Shown: one piece after another, positions 32,729 to 57,591 of the stretch
Layout of the letters: each line of letters starts with the position of its first letter
Numbering within the stretch: the stretch's first letter is position 1
Assembly (NCBI RefSeq): GCF_013283875.1
Contig: NZ_CP054139.1
Coordinates: 4,464,001-4,528,000 of the forward strand
Direction: 5' to 3'
Origin: Mucilaginibacter mali
GTDB lineage: Bacteria; Bacteroidota; Bacteroidia; Sphingobacteriales; Sphingobacteriaceae
DNA length: 64,000 bases
Notes under the pieces: model-generated
Databases searched by the model: none
Told to the model about the DNA's origin: nothing
What the model saw: only the letters and a program-made list of their open reading frames with translations
Position numbers and translations under genes: made by a program

Positions 32729-32866
32729 ACTCACCCCGACTGCGCTACGCTGGTCGACCCTCTCTTCGCTTCGCGGAAAGAGGGCGGGAATAGTATCGAA
32801 ACCACTGTTCCCCTCTTTCCGCGAAGCGGAGAGAGGGTGGTCGGGCGAAGCAACGACCGGGTGAGT
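32729..32866. repeat. ACTCACCC...GGGTGAGT palindrome (PR1 family)
   Basis: Left arm ACTCACCCCGAC...CCCTCTCTTCGC, right arm GAGAGAGGGTGGTCGGG...ACCGGGTGAGT. Copies also at 35113, 40148, 41020/42900 (split by the insertion sequence), 51916 (inside a gene) and 57454. With the hairpin at 32599 it accounts for the 308-bp gap between folP and the BrkB gene. Confidence 0.9.
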
Positions 32867-35112: not shown

Positions 35113-35252
35113 ACTCACCCCGACTACGCTTCGCTGGTCGGCCCTCTCTTCGCTGCGCGGAAAGAGGGCAGGAGCAAATATTGGCAAATTTTATATCCCT
35201 CTTTGCGCGTAACGAAGAGAGGATGATTGAGCGAAGTAACGACCGGGTGAGT
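35113..35252. repeat. PR1-family palindrome
   Basis: ACTCACCCCGACTACGCTTCG at the left and GACCGGGTGAGT at the right, with CTTTCCGCGCAGCGAAG-like inner arms. Lies right after the secreted-protein stop and before the bidirectional terminator. Confidence 0.88.
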
Positions 35253-40147: not shown

Positions 40148-40297
40148 ACTCACCCGACAGCGCTTCGCCGGTCGGCCCTCTCTCCGCTGCACGAAAAGAG
40201 GGCAGGAATTGTATCGGGTATGCAATATCGAAAATCCATTCCCCTCTTTCGCCACAGGCGAGAGAGGGTGGTCCAGCGAAGCGAGGACCGGGTGAGT
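40148..40297. repeat. PR1-family palindrome
   Basis: ACTCACCCGACAGCGCTTCG at the left and GACCGGGTGAGT at the right, complete with loop. It is the closest intact reference for the copy split by the insertion sequence at 41097. Confidence 0.9.
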
Positions 40298-41019: not shown

Positions 41020-41096
41020 ACTCACCCCGGTTATGCTAAGCCGGTCGGCTCTCTTTGCTGCGCGTAACAGCGGGCAGGAGTTGTGATGTATCTGCA
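41020..41096. repeat. left half of a PR1 palindrome, interrupted by an insertion sequence
   Basis: ACTCACCCCGG...GGTCGGCTCTCTTTGCTGCG...GGGCAGGAGTTGTGATGTATCTGCA, matching the left arm and part of the loop of the intact copies. The right half continues at 42900 after the element. Confidence 0.88.
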
Positions 41097-42899: not shown

Positions 42900-42964
42900 C
42901 TTTAATATCCCTCTTTCGCCAAAGGTGAGAGAGGGTGGTATAGCGAAGCGTAGACCGGGTGAGT
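42900..42964. repeat. right half of the split PR1 palindrome
   Basis: CTTTAATATCCCTCTTTCGCC then GAGAGAGGGTGG...AGACCGGGTGAGT, the right arm that belongs with 41020-41096. Confidence 0.85.
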
Positions 42965-47835: not shown

Positions 47836-47970
47836 AGTCCGAAAGTCAGTAAAGACCGGTAGTCCGAAAGAGCAGCTTCAAAAGATCAAAAGCGCATTGG
47901 TCCCCAATGCGCTTTTATTGTATGCATACTTTTATCTTTCGGACTACCGGTCTTTACTGACTTTCGGACT
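47836..47970. repeat. 36-bp perfect inverted repeat around a terminator hairpin
   Basis: 47836-47871 and 47935-47970 are exact reverse complements (AGTCCGAAAGTCAGTAAAG ... TAGTCCGAAAGA). Each arm contains two copies of TAGTCCGAAAG-type words. Within the 63-bp centre, AAAAGCGCATTGG (47888-47900) pairs with CCAATGCGCTTTT (47904-47916). It lies between convergent genes and would terminate both. Confidence 0.92.
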
Positions 47971-50900
47971 TTCTATACACCACCCTCAACATACTCGGCA
48001 GCACAATAAGCAACAACGGCAAAGCCACAATAAACCCGCCTATAACCGCTATGGCTAATGGCTGGTGCAATTGCGCGCCGGCACCTATGCCTAAAGCCAG
48101 CGGCATCAGGGCTATAATGGCGCCTAAGGCGGTCATCAGTTTTGGGCGAAGGCGGGTGGAGATGGAATAGATAATGGCTTCATCCACACTTTGCTTTGCA
48201 GCACTTTCCTTAAACTGCAGGAAGGTGAAGATGGCGTTCTCGCCAATGATACCTACAATCATAATTAAGCCGGTGTAGCTGCCTACATTTAATGGCGTTT
48301 TGGTGAGGTATAAGGCAAGCATGCTGCCTGCTACACCCAGTACGGATATGGCCAGTATCAGCAGCGCTATCCTGAACTGTTTGAACAGGAATAGTATCAC
48401 CCCAAATACCAGCAAACTGGCGGTAATCAGTATCAGTAATAACTCTTTGAACGATTGCTGTTGCTCGGCATAAGCGCCGCCATATTCTACATGATAGCCC
48501 GATGGCAGGCTAACCTTTTCGGCAATGCCTTTTTTAATGGCGGGCATTACACTGCCCAAGTCGGCGCCCTCCAGGCGGGCAGTGATAACACCCATAGATT
48601 GCAGGTCCTGCCGGTTAATTTCTGCATCACCGGGGTGCAGTTCTACTGTGGCCAACTGATCTATGGGCAGCAGGTTGCCGTTGGGTAAAAACACGTTCAG
48701 GTTTTTAATGCCGGCAATATTCAGCGAACGGTTGCCCGGATATACCATGCGGATGGGAGCTAATTGCTGGCTTTCGTAAATATTGCCTGCCAAATTACCC
48801 TCTAAGGCGGTTTGCGCCTGGTATTGCAGGCTGGCAGGGTTCAATCCATACTGCGCCAGTTGACTATACCGCGGCACAATACTTACCGACGGACCAGCAA
48901 TAGTAATACCATCGAAAACATCGGCAGTACCCTTTACACCACCTACTACGGCAGCTATTTGTTTAGATAGTTCCTGTAATTTTTGCTGATCGGTACCAAA
49001 TACTTTTACCTCTATCGGTTGGGTCGAACTCATCAGGTCGCCCAGCATATCGCCTATCACCTGGCCAAAATCAACCCGCAGGGCAGGCTGGCTTTCGGCT
49101 ATCCTGGTGCGCAAATCGGCCGATACTTCTTCGGTGCTTTTATCGCGTTCTTTTTTTAGTTGAATAAGGTAATCGCCGGTATTAGGTTCGGTGATAAAGA
49201 AGCCCATTTGCGTACCTGTACGGCGTGAATAAGCGGCTACTTCGGGCTGTTTAGCCAGTATCTTCTCCACCTCTCGCAGCATACGGTCGGTCTCCTCCAA
49301 CGATGTACCGGGTGGCGATGTATAATCCAAAACAATAGCGCCCTCGTCCATTTCGGGCAGGAACCCTGTTTCTAATTTACCAGGAACAACCACCAGCACA
49401 GCTATCAGGGCTACCGCTATAGCCACACCAACATAAGGGTGCAGGATAAAAAACGACACCCATTTCTGCCTTTTTACCTCGTGCGCTTCTTCTTCCTTTT
49501 TCACAAGGCCAAGCTTATCCCTGCTCAATAACAGGTACACCACCGGCAAACCTATCCATGTAACAAAGAACGAACAGGTAAGGGTAATGATCATGGTATT
49601 GGTCAGCACCTTAAAATAGGCCCCCGCCACACCCGTCATCAGCAGGAAGGGGATAAATATCACAATGGTACTGATGGACGAACCCACCATGGCCGGGAAC
49701 AGGTAATCGATAGCTTTGCGCAGCAGGTGGCGGGTCAGCTCGTTAGGGTGCTCCTCGTGTGTGCGGTGTATCTGCTCTACCACTACAATAGCATCATCGA
49801 TGATCAAACCAATGGCCGCCGCAATGGCGCCCAGCGTCATGATATTGATGGTGTAACCGATACTGTAAAGTACAATCAGCGTCAATCCTAAAGTAATAGG
49901 GATAGTGATCAGGATGGTAGCGCTTGCCTTTACCGACCGCAGGAAGATAATTGCCACAATAATAGCCAGCACCAAACCTATCCATAAACTATCACTCACG
50001 CTTTTTACCGATTCGTTTACAAAGTCGGCCTGTATATAATAGGGTTTAATGCTCACATCAGCCGGTAATATCTTTTTAAGCGCGGCTACCTTTACGGCCA
50101 TATCGTTTGATAGGTCGATAAGGTTGGCATCCGGTTGTTTAATTACGGCTATCAGCACCCCATCGTGCCCGTTGGCGTTTATTTTGGTGTACTCTATGCC
50201 CTCGCTGATCTTTACTTCGGCAATATCTTTAAGCCGGGTAATGCGTTTGCGGTTATCTGTAATCACCAGGTTTTCCAGTTGATCTTTGGCGCTTAGTGTC
50301 GCATCGGTAACGGTGAGGTACAGCATCTTATAATCGGCCAGGTAACCGCCCGATTTGATAAAGTTAGTTTGCGCTAAGGCCGTGTTGATATTATCGGGCG
50401 TGAGCGATAAGGCGCTCATCTTAGCCCTGTCCAGCACCAGCCAATACTCTTTGGTTTTACCGCCGATCACCCGTATCTCTGATACGCCCGCCACCTGCGA
50501 TAAGAAAGGCTTTACCGTAAAGGTAGCCAGCATCTTTAGTTCAATAGGCGAACGGTTGTGGCTTTCCAGCGTGTAGCCACTAACAGGCAGTATCGATGGG
50601 TTCATCTTCTCTACCGCTATGTTCACATCGGCAGGCAGATCGTTCTTTATCTTATCTATCTGGGCCTGTATGCGCTGCTGACTCAGGTCTATGTCGGCGC
50701 TCCATTTCATAAAGGCCGATATTTCGCAACTGCCGCGACTGGTGGTACTGCGCACTACTTCCAGGTCGGGCACCTGCTTTACGGCATTCTCCAGCGGCTT
50801 GGTAACCGTGATCATCATCTTGTTCACAGGTTGCAGGCCTTCATCGGCAATGATCTTTATTTTGGGGAAGGTAATATCCGGAAACAGCGATGTTTGCAGT

Positions 50901-50998
50901 TTGGTATAAACAAACACGCCGCCCATCAATATCAGCGCCAATACCAGGCTAATGGGCTTTTTGTGCGATATAAAGTAGTCTTTTACAGGCGTGCTCAT
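47954..50998 (-). CDS. efflux RND transporter permease (CusA/CzcA-like)
   Basis: A 1014-residue inner-membrane pump with 12 helices in two halves, each followed by a large periplasmic domain. N-terminus DYFISHKKPISLVLALILMGG, GLIIDDAIVVVEQIHR in helix 4 (acidic residues for proton relay), DYLFPAMVGSSISTIVIF, and the second half MIVGIIGENAIFTFLQF. Sequence is closer to heavy-metal efflux pumps than to AcrB, but the metal ligands of CusA are not obvious, so the substrate is open. Start overlaps the adaptor stop (ATGA). The final codons lie within the right arm of the nested palindrome. Confidence 0.92.
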   Translation of the reverse strand: MSTPVKDYFISHKKPISLVLALILMGGVFVYTKLQTSLFPDITFPKIKIIADEGLQPVNKMMITVTKPLENAVKQVPDLEVVRSTTSRGSCEISAFMKWSADIDLSQQRIQAQIDKIKNDLPADVNIAVEKMNPSILPVSGYTLESHNRSPIELKMLATFTVKPFLSQVAGVSEIRVIGGKTKEYWLVLDRAKMSALSLTPDNINTALAQTNFIKSGGYLADYKMLYLTVTDATLSAKDQLENLVITDNRKRITRLKDIAEVKISEGIEYTKINANGHDGVLIAVIKQPDANLIDLSNDMAVKVAALKKILPADVSIKPYYIQADFVNESVKSVSDSLWIGLVLAIIVAIIFLRSVKASATILITIPITLGLTLIVLYSIGYTINIMTLGAIAAAIGLIIDDAIVVVEQIHRTHEEHPNELTRHLLRKAIDYLFPAMVGSSISTIVIFIPFLLMTGVAGAYFKVLTNTMIITLTCSFFVTWIGLPVVYLLLSRDKLGLVKKEEEAHEVKRQKWVSFFILHPYVGVAIAVALIAVLVVVPGKLETGFLPEMDEGAIVLDYTSPPGTSLEETDRMLREVEKILAKQPEVAAYSRRTGTQMGFFITEPNTGDYLIQLKKERDKSTEEVSADLRTRIAESQPALRVDFGQVIGDMLGDLMSSTQPIEVKVFGTDQQKLQELSKQIAAVVGGVKGTADVFDGITIAGPSVSIVPRYSQLAQYGLNPASLQYQAQTALEGNLAGNIYESQQLAPIRMVYPGNRSLNIAGIKNLNVFLPNGNLLPIDQLATVELHPGDAEINRQDLQSMGVITARLEGADLGSVMPAIKKGIAEKVSLPSGYHVEYGGAYAEQQQSFKELLLILITASLLVFGVILFLFKQFRIALLILAISVLGVAGSMLALYLTKTPLNVGSYTGLIMIVGIIGENAIFTFLQFKESAAKQSVDEAIIYSISTRLRPKLMTALGAIIALMPLALGIGAGAQLHQPLAIAVIGGFIVALPLLLIVLPSMLRVVYRKSESQ

Positions 50999-52116
50999 GG
51001 TTTTACTATTTTAACCTTAGCGGTATCGCTTAAACCATAATTACCCGTCACCACAATGCGGTCGGCGGCTGTAAACTGGGGCGATAATATCTCTACCCGA
51101 TCGCTGGTTTCGATGCCTTTGGTTACCGGCACTTTTACAGCCAGGGTATCTTTTATCAGCTTCATCACCCAAAATTCGGTTTGGGTCTCGTTGGCCAGTA
51201 CGGCTTGTTTAGGCAGCGAAACGGTGTTTTGCTTAGCGGTTTTCACCAGCTTTGCTCTTGCTGTCAGGTTTTCGGGGATGGGGTGGCTGCTGTTTACTTT
51301 CAGCACTACGCCCTGTGTTTGCGACAGGGTATCTACCGCCGGCATCAACGAGGCTACGTGTCCGGTCAGTTTTTCGCCGTCGGGCAGGGTGAGCGGGATA
51401 TCCTGTCCCAATTTCACCAGCGCGCGATATTCGTATGGAACTTGAAGTACGAATGCGAAGCTCGACTCATCGCTGATGATGGCCAACTGTTCGCCATCCT
51501 GCACATAATCGCCCACCTGGTGGTTAAGTTGGGTGATGTAGCCATGCTGCGATGCTTTGATCTTGTTAACCCCCGAAAATTTGAAGGTGGTATCCAGTAT
51601 ATTGATGCTATTGCCAATGCTTTGCGCCTCTTTGGTTTTGATGGTGAACAGGGTAGTTCCCTTGCTTACCATTTGGCCCGGCTTGGCATTAGCTACTTCG
51701 ATATAGCCGTTGGCATTGGCCTTCACATAGTTTTTTTGCTGAAAGACCGATGTGGCGTTCATCTCTACGTAATCGGTCATGGCATTTTGATCGATAGTGG
51801 TTATGGTAACCGGTGTTTGCGATTTTACATCCACTTCTTCATCAGCCGCTGGCTTATCGGCGCTGGAACAGGCGGATAGGAAGAGGGCTGCGGCGAGGAG
51901 GAGCAAGGTGGATAGACTTAACCGTCCGTGGCTACGCCCGGACACCCTCTCTTCGCCTGCGGCGGAAAAGGGGGATGCATTGTTAGCGATGGGTTTAAAA
52001 CCCATCGCTATGTGGGTAGCACTGCTTCCGCCCTCTTTACACGCAGCGAAGAGAGGGCCGGCCAGCGAAGCGTTGCCGGGGTGAGTATATGCGGGATATG
52101 TAAAAAACTTCTTCAT
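50995..52116 (-). CDS. RND efflux periplasmic adaptor with palindromic repeat in its signal peptide
   Basis: A 373-residue membrane-fusion protein: lipoyl/barrel-sandwich halves GYIEVANAKPGQMVSKGTTLF and SQHGYITQLNHQVGDYVQDGEQL around a short hairpin, then beta-barrel (FAFVLQVPYEYRALVKLGQ) and membrane-proximal domains. It links the RND pump to TolC. Codons 11-67 (51916-52086) are a PR1 repeat of exactly 171 bp, placed between MKKFFTYPAY and LSTLLLLAAALFLSAC; without it the N-terminus is a normal lipoprotein signal with Cys in LSAC. With it, the signal peptide is 73 residues long before the lipobox, unless an ATG in the repeat (codon 38) is used. Export may be impaired. Confidence 0.92.
   Translation of the reverse strand: MKKFFTYPAYTHPGNASLAGPLFAACKEGGSSATHIAMGFKPIANNASPFSAAGEERVSGRSHGRLSLSTLLLLAAALFLSACSSADKPAADEEVDVKSQTPVTITTIDQNAMTDYVEMNATSVFQQKNYVKANANGYIEVANAKPGQMVSKGTTLFTIKTKEAQSIGNSINILDTTFKFSGVNKIKASQHGYITQLNHQVGDYVQDGEQLAIISDESSFAFVLQVPYEYRALVKLGQDIPLTLPDGEKLTGHVASLMPAVDTLSQTQGVVLKVNSSHPIPENLTARAKLVKTAKQNTVSLPKQAVLANETQTEFWVMKLIKDTLAVKVPVTKGIETSDRVEILSPQFTAADRIVVTGNYGLSDTAKVKIVKP
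51916..52086. repeat. PR1-family palindrome inside a coding region
   Basis: ACTTAACCGTCCGTGG at one end and CCGGGGTGAGT at the other, with the GCGATGGGTTTTAAACCCATCGC-type hairpin nested in the loop (51983-52009). Length is 171 bp, a multiple of three, without stop codon in the adaptor frame. Confidence 0.9.
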
Positions 52117-52117
52117 G

Positions 52118-53344
52118 CTATTTGTTCCAGTAATTTAACTGATTGATGAGCTGTAGTTTGCTGATATTGGTTTGCGTAAGCAGGTTCCTTACCGACATGT
52201 AGTTGTTGATGGCGATGATCAGGTCGGCCATGCGGACGTCGCCGGTCTGCATCAGTTGGGTATCCACCTTGATCAGGCTTTCCGAATATTTGAACTGGTC
52301 TTTTATCTGCTGCTCCAACTGGGCGTTATCGTTTATCTGCTGGTTCAACTGCGCTATTTGCTGGCGGTATTGGGTATTAAAAAATGTCTTATAGTTTTGG
52401 CGGGTATCCTCTTCAAGTGTTATCTTTTTTTGCTGTAGTTTGCGCTGACCACCATCGTATATCGGGATAGATATGCTGAAGCCAACGCTGGTACCAAAGT
52501 TTTTATAAGGTTGGTATGAAAAATCGGAATTGTAACCACCATCGGCAAAAACGTTGATCTTGGGTTTATAACTCTGATCTATCAAACTGCGGTTGTTGGC
52601 CAGGCGCATACTGTCTGTACGAAACTGCTGGAAATAGATGCTGTTGCGGGTATCCATAGGGAAACTGCGCTTTAAGTCCGGATCTTTTATTTCCAGCACG
52701 GCGGTATCTACAATTCCCGAAAGATAATTGAGCGTGGTCAGGTCGTTTTTATATTGCAGGCGCGACTGGGACAGCGTTAACTGCTGCTGTTTCAGGGTTA
52801 CCAGGAAAGTGAGGTAATCGCTTTGGCGGTATACGTTGCCGCGGGTTAGTTTTTTTAACAGGTCTTCCTCTTTGGTCAGCAGGTCTACCACCTCTTTATT
52901 AAACTGGTATTGCTGCAGGCTGCCATAGGCCGTAATGTATTGGGTGGTGACGGCCTTTTTAAGATCCTGCTCGGATATTTTAATGGCATTCCCCAGCGAA
53001 TCTTTCGATAGTTTCAAAGCCGATAACTGGGCGGCCAAATAATTTTTGTTGATGATCTGCTGATTAACCCCTACCAGCGCATTCAAAGTTTGCCCGTTGG
53101 TAATGGCCGATTCATACCCAAAACCACCGATGACCGGGGCATATGTACCGGTGCTGCTACCTATTACCTGTGGCTTTAGCCCAGCCCGTAACCGCAGGCT
53201 ATCCAATTTGCCCGACGCGATCTGGTTGTTCAGGTCCTTAAGCAGGGGGCTGCTTTTTAAGGCGGCATTAAGGTAATGATCCAAGTCTTGTGCCCGGGTA
53301 GTAAAGGCAAAGGCGCAAATAATAATGCCGAGGATATATTTCAT
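52118..53344 (-). CDS. TolC family outer-membrane protein
   Basis: A 408-residue protein with a signal peptide (MKYILGIIICAFAFTTRAQ) and two long coiled-coil repeats: SPLLKDLNNQIASGKLDSL in the first half, and FNTQYRQQIAQLNQQINDN in the second. It forms the outer-membrane channel of the RND pump whose adaptor starts one base after its stop. First gene of the operon. Confidence 0.93.
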   Translation of the reverse strand: MKYILGIIICAFAFTTRAQDLDHYLNAALKSSPLLKDLNNQIASGKLDSLRLRAGLKPQVIGSSTGTYAPVIGGFGYESAITNGQTLNALVGVNQQIINKNYLAAQLSALKLSKDSLGNAIKISEQDLKKAVTTQYITAYGSLQQYQFNKEVVDLLTKEEDLLKKLTRGNVYRQSDYLTFLVTLKQQQLTLSQSRLQYKNDLTTLNYLSGIVDTAVLEIKDPDLKRSFPMDTRNSIYFQQFRTDSMRLANNRSLIDQSYKPKINVFADGGYNSDFSYQPYKNFGTSVGFSISIPIYDGGQRKLQQKKITLEEDTRQNYKTFFNTQYRQQIAQLNQQINDNAQLEQQIKDQFKYSESLIKVDTQLMQTGDVRMADLIIAINNYMSVRNLLTQTNISKLQLINQLNYWNK

Positions 53345-53390: not shown

Positions 53391-53497
53391 TTAGGTTTTT
53401 AACCACAGAGGGCACAGAGAGAAAAATCACGGAGAACACAGAGGTATAGTTTATATTGAATATGATCTCTGTGTCCTCTGTGGTTAAAAAACCTAAT
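53391..53497. repeat. CCACAGAG subfamily palindrome
   Basis: TTAGGTTTTTAACCACAGAGG on the left and CTCTGTGGTTAAAAAACCTAA on the right. It separates TolC from the PepSY gene, and its right edge contains the stop codon of the latter (53493). Confidence 0.88.
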
Positions 53498-57453: not shown

Positions 57454-57591
57454 ACTCACCCGTCCGTGGCTCCGCCCGGACACCCTCTCTTGCCTTTGGC
57501 AAAAGAGGGATGGGGGTTATACGATACTCTTTCTTCTCTCTTTCCGCAAAGCGGAGAGAGGGTGGTCGAGTGAAGCCACGACCGGGTGAGT
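57454..57591. repeat. PR1-family palindrome
   Basis: ACTCACCCGTCCGTGGCTCCG at the left, ACCGGGTGAGT at the right. Its left arm shares the CGTCCGTGGCT word with the copy in the adaptor gene, so these two form a subgroup. Lies between convergent genes. Confidence 0.9.

Follow-up and report, generated by a model that had tools for sequence, protein, structure and literature searches.

A composite REPIN-like palindrome lies in frame in the predicted signal sequence of an efflux adaptor of Mucilaginibacter mali

Mucilaginibacter mali is a soil bacterium, and the stretch of its genome considered here (64,000 nucleotides, hereafter the window) carries on its minus strand a three-gene efflux operon, consisting of a TolC-type gene, an RND adaptor and an RND pump. 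The features relevant to this study are listed below in window coordinates.

47954 to 50998, minus strand: RND pump gene (ACR_tran), with a 4-nt overlap with the adaptor end
50995 to 52116, minus strand: RND adaptor (373 aa; HlyD_D23/HlyD_3 matches), predicted lipoprotein and host of the insertion
51868 to 51915, minus strand: hydrophobic core and lipobox of the adaptor signal, LSTLLLLAAALFLSAC, codons 68-83
51916 to 52086, no strand assigned: composite palindromic (REPIN-like) element of 171 nt, adaptor codons 11-67
51917 to 51972, minus strand: left hairpin unit of the inverted pair, 19.6 bits, the lowest score among 191 units
51983 to 52011, no strand assigned: central GTAG-REP-type hairpin, (T/A)TAGCGATGGGTTT-n-AAACCCATCGCTA, with exact 13-nt arms at 51984-51996 and 51998-52010
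52030 to 52086, plus strand: right hairpin unit of the inverted pair, 56.5 bits
52087 to 52117, minus strand: spacer from the tolC stop to the element, 31 nt, being a 1-nt gap plus adaptor codons 1-10 (MKKFFTYPAY)
52118 to 53344, minus strand: TolC-type outer membrane efflux gene (OEP), ending 1 nt before the adaptor ATG

With the ATG at 52116, the element (52086 to 51916) makes up precisely adaptor codons 11-67 and contains no stop, and the adaptor reading frame is intact over 373 codons despite the additional 171 nt. An earlier note on this DNA had described a 171-nt repeat of 57 stop-free codons dividing MKKFFTYPAY from LSTLLLLAAALFLSAC; coordinates, length, frame and both flanks read as it claimed. 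Sequence and hydropathy give the adaptor signal a charged n-region, a hydrophobic core and a lipobox Cys, with the top hydropathy window (TLLLLAAALFL) at 2.75 and codons 1-66 reaching at most 1.57. The predicted export signal is lengthened by the element from about 26 to 82 residues. The adaptor body is under purifying selection, with a pN of 0.104 versus a pS of 0.699 to the orthologue in genome G047 (290 codons; synonymous sites near saturation). A pseudogene is ruled out by the intact frame and by a pN far below pS. Further upstream, between tolC and the next gene, an inverted repeat (CACAGAGGGCACAGAG ... CTCTGTGTCCTCTGTGG) lies at 53400-53490 and resembles the kind of repeat found in genome G099.

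The element is composite: a REPIN-like inverted pair of ~56-nt units encloses a nested GTAG-type REP hairpin in its centre. The palindromic repeat proposed earlier is real, and this architecture refines its description. Predicted folding of the 171 nt beats 200 of 200 dinucleotide shuffles (z -6.0). At least 74 BLAST matches (E<=0.001) to the 171-nt query have been detected in the 6.04-Mb single-contig M. mali genome (40 of 129 first-look candidates scored), and the 27-nt right-end core occurs there at 84 places with at most three mismatches, while a reversed-pattern control gives none. An alignment of the copies shows the family boundary ACTCACCC...GGGTGAGT, and the ends of the adaptor copy fit it, its left end being mutated to ACTTAACC. 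These terminal inverted repeats are almost fixed across 71 two-ended copies, among which no exact border repeats of 4 nt or more have been found, and shifted borders stay within the shuffle range. A MITE of a DDE transposase is rejected: the terminal inverted repeats are present, but without target-site duplication. An Rfam search of 51400-52600 gave no match up to E 1.

Copies in the genome were delineated by scanning a profile of the ~56-nt unit over 92 stretches (386,262 bases), comprising the window and the surroundings of the places hit by BLAST or by either pattern. The scan returned 191 units, which form 87 inverted pairs and 17 singles, i.e. 104 copies or half-copies, a count located by pattern and BLAST from which old diverged copies within genes may be missing. 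Pair lengths fall mainly into two classes, 128-141 nt (61 of 87) and 167-181 nt (18 of 87), and in alignment the surplus length of the long copies is the second, central hairpin, GTAGCGATGGGTTTNAAACCCATCGCTA in most. This hairpin occurs at 35 distinct places of the genome at up to three mismatches, 14 of which are within pairs. The tag beside it is of the GTAG type in many copies and TTAG/ATAG in the adaptor copy, while the outer units have a weak GTA(G/T) flank only, preceding ACTCACCC. The window holds further copies of the outer family, namely four pairs and two single units, at 32729-32866, 35113-35252, 40148-40297, 41020-41067, 42909-42964 and 57454-57591.

Comparison with orthologues indicates that an insertion of this family at this place is particular to the M. 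mali genome. An adaptor match (E<=1e-80) is present in 107 of 149 Mucilaginibacter genomes, and N-termini were read in 62 of them; in the remaining 45 no open frame exceeds 327 aa, which is too short for a long frame-keeping insert. These 62, together with 80 further loci and a few more distant relatives, make up 148 loci with 111 distinct N-termini, leaving out L055-L060 (weak adaptor match) and L050 (cut by a contig end). The distance from the first in-frame Met to the lipobox Cys is 16-28 residues in 105 of the 111. The six exceptions are the insertion-bearing adaptor itself (83), L045 (51), L105 (41), L098 (39), L229 (39, apparently just an upstream in-frame Met) and L252 (unscored, short by eye). 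In none of the other 147 orthologue loci does the family occur within the adaptor N-terminus. The best-matching two (83 and 77% identity) carry signals of the ordinary kind, 24 residues long, at this position. These comparisons bear out the earlier reading that a lipoprotein signal has received an in-frame insertion; a search for an unrelated extension of equal length shared by the orthologues found none. A shared ancestral extension is likewise ruled out, as the other orthologues read lack one. The right-end core is present in 72 of the 149 genus genomes (M. mali included, the richest with its 84 places) and absent from G047, the genome of the closest adaptor (83% identity). An exact empty site was not found among the orthologues, the nearest one having 83% identity and two codons fewer between the flanks.

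Placement of the family in the M. mali genome is mostly extragenic. The 104 copies or half-copies comprise 58 between same-strand genes, 25 between convergent genes, 15 between divergent genes and 6 at stretch edges, with gene calls made by a simple codon score that is not an annotation. This caller placed no copy inside genes; it set the adaptor start 82 nt beyond the element and so scored even the adaptor copy as intergenic. Direct frame reading showed that in two copies an open frame crosses the element and continues into a coding frame, namely in the adaptor copy and in the copy at 157896-158032; the latter has possible ATG starts within and behind the element and none upstream. Of the 104 copies or half-copies examined, the adaptor copy alone lies in a coding sequence whose ATG precedes the element, and the rest look intergenic, mostly a short way behind stop codons. 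At another place (L006), the element G000:C1:1383208-1383377 adjoins a dinB-like frame (HIVHIDLDSFFVSVE), and the interval from the element to the conserved start contains no in-frame ATG.

These counts bear directly on the likeness to Rickettsia palindromic elements that the earlier note had drawn. Those elements are reported in 19 reading frames (PMC2229807), and the analogy stands in so far as both place a palindrome of 100-200 nt within the reading frame of a conserved protein gene. It does not extend, in a comparison by description, to the gene-invading habit, with one of the 104 M. mali copies examined in a gene. A gene-invading class whose frames are kept open for life inside proteins could draw on the frequency of open element frames, 168 of 510 in 85 pairs, where 200 shuffling trials average 119 and never exceed 142 (the copies are related and not independent). 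Nevertheless, the single copy in coding sequence and the positions mostly behind stops, seen across the 104 copies or half-copies of the M. mali genome, mostly refute this idea, and we regard it as very improbable.

The position of the family relative to stop codons is markedly uneven. Among 57 same-strand clusters, 46 have the upstream stop nearer than the downstream start, with median distances of 26 and 139 nt (p 3e-6), and 32 lie within 35 nt of the upstream stop, where uniform placement in the same gaps expects 13.3 and gives at most 23 in 2000 trials. At 31 nt from the tolC stop, the adaptor copy falls within this range. The bias may have been produced by selection and not by a preference at insertion. 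The same family also occurs behind the adaptor's own stop in other genomes, at 5 nt in M. pineti (L238), 8 nt at both L073 and L209, and 34 nt at L108 (L209 and L034 are the same contig and counted once). The pump match starts behind the element at L238, L073 and L209, and L108 has no pump match in the fetched part; at L241, a family copy is found far upstream of the adaptor. As a separate observation, the element at L238, L073 and L209 parts adaptor and pump genes that overlap or almost touch in other species, and at L238 the element seems to stand after the old pump ATG and before a new one.

Seven Y1_Tnp matches are present in the M. mali genome. GTAG-type hairpins like the central one are located ~50 and ~120 nt upstream of one of these frames, 5647095-5647529 (locus L180, G000:C1:5647095-5647675). 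The motifs of this transposase (DHVH, WQ and YIYRQQIHH) look by eye like those of subclass 1.2 of PMC6006769, a subclass listed in that paper without hairpins. The outer units have no transposase gene directly flanking them, the nearest Y1_Tnp being ~0.7 kb off. We infer that the element has been spread by a Y1/RAYT-type transposase.

The reading that we consider probable combines the placement of the family with the spacing of the operon. A REPIN-like miniature element, one of ~100 in the genome, would have inserted 31 nt behind the tolC stop, the usual place of its family. Because the adaptor starts 1 nt after the tolC stop, this usual post-stop site is also the n-region of the adaptor signal, and tight spacing would make it coding. 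The insertion presumably survived because it is a multiple of three, is open in the adaptor frame and falls in a length-tolerant region before the core. With the frame kept in one of three landings and about one-third of element frames open, roughly 1 in 9 landings would leave the frame intact. Translation would proceed from the conserved tolC-coupled ATG straight through the element, giving an 82-residue signal cleaved before the lipobox Cys, and the charges beside the core (R57, R61 and R65) would be supplied by the element's own end. Most likely, the insertion is neutral and tolerated; the start codon used, the lipoprotein processing and the neutrality are all inferred.

Alternatively, translation could start within the element, using the GTG at codon 58, with codons 1-57 as a leader and the element giving both the start and the n-region. 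The resulting 25-residue signal before the Cys (VSGRSHGRLSLSTLLLLAAALFLSA) would serve equally well as a lipoprotein signal and is within the length range of the orthologues, and codons 58-69 hold two K+R and no D+E, with core and lipobox following. In the predicted mRNA fold, however, this GTG is inside the hairpins, with its first and third base paired, whereas the upstream ATG is outside the element hairpins, with its G and the four bases after it paired to the opposite end of the folded stretch. Relatives, moreover, have the tolC-coupled ATG in common, and these points together favour translation through the element. In addition, all 57 upstream codons are open, an openness that a mere leader does not need. 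A start at codon 58 therefore seems unlikely, and passage through the element from the tolC-coupled ATG is the preferred reading.

Selection for the element is the alternative to neutrality, either with the hairpin between tolC and adaptor tuning the protein ratio of the operon or with the long n-region altering export. In E. coli, REPs are known to occur near stop codons, and those close behind stops can lower translation (PMC12306157); the effect is described there for distances below 16 nt, whereas the distance here is 31 nt and the element is within the translated frame. The low score of the left unit, the lowest of 191, might be taken as a trace of adaptation. Yet this unit retains its hairpin and is 87% identical over 53 nt to its closest other copy (57460-57509), so that it may be a mere subfamily member. 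Two other repeat families are found in the same n-region in other species, but the other orthologues read manage without the element. Overall, we consider maintenance by selection quite unlikely, and tolerance of a neutral insertion stays the favoured account.

Other dispersed repeats lie in this n-region in other species. L045 (genome G019) and L105 (G129) carry a palindrome of the GTGTTCC... type 37-39 nt behind the tolC stop, in the signal n-region, and the pattern occurs at 16 places in G019, 2 in G129 and none in G000 (M. mali), G047 and G099. The equal position suggests one shared event, plus a tandem copy in G019. The n-region of L098 (G099) carries TGTGCCTCCTCTGTTTCTCTGCGGTAAA, which occurs at 22 places in its own genome and at none in G000; the tolC match ends some 250 nt upstream, so the post-stop rule fails to explain this case. 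The adaptor n-region thus hosts three unrelated dispersed repeats, the M. mali element and those at L098/L247 and at L045/L232 plus L105/L245.

Several features of the Mucilaginibacter family are shared with REPINs and BIMEs, including an inverted hairpin pair in many copies, mostly extragenic and close behind stops, without target duplication, and a Y1 transposase gene with GTAG hairpins alongside in the same genome. The family differs in its ~56-nt units, compared with 20-40 bp given for REPs in PMC3733652, in the separate GTAG hairpin nested in some pairs, and in an adaptor copy that is probably translated. Similarly, in enterobacterial ERIC/YPAL fusions, a miniature palindrome adds residues to a predicted signal peptide; in Yersinia YPO1552, a palindromic element fused in frame makes up part of the signal in a putative new exported protein (PMC2229807), whereas the M. 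mali element lengthens the n-region of a conserved adaptor lipoprotein. The earlier remark that no description was known in this group is borne out in part for Mucilaginibacter, for which no account of this family or of in-frame palindromes was found in a partial coverage of the literature with subscription journals mostly outside the search. In-frame palindromes are already described in other bacteria (PMC2229807). As far as our searches show, what is new here is the composite family of Mucilaginibacter, the proposal that an in-frame insertion arose through post-stop placement, and the presence of three repeat families within a single n-region.

The M. mali case offers a simple, testable rule, in which an 'extragenic' palindrome stays at its post-stop place and tight operon spacing makes that place coding. 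It suggests that signal-peptide n-regions are permissive landing zones, and it provides a natural test of the n-region length that a lipoprotein can bear. For annotation it is a warning: where a conserved lipoprotein has an oddly long signal, the cause may be a repeat and not a wrongly assigned start. A bolder idea, which we consider unlikely, is that the adaptor gene start is a recurrent landing zone in Mucilaginibacter where repeats are taken into use, with three unrelated repeats having become signal parts in different species, and with the end of the M. mali element giving the charges next to the core and its hairpin setting the adaptor-to-TolC ratio. If true, packed operons could gain new signal-peptide n-regions from mobile hairpins.
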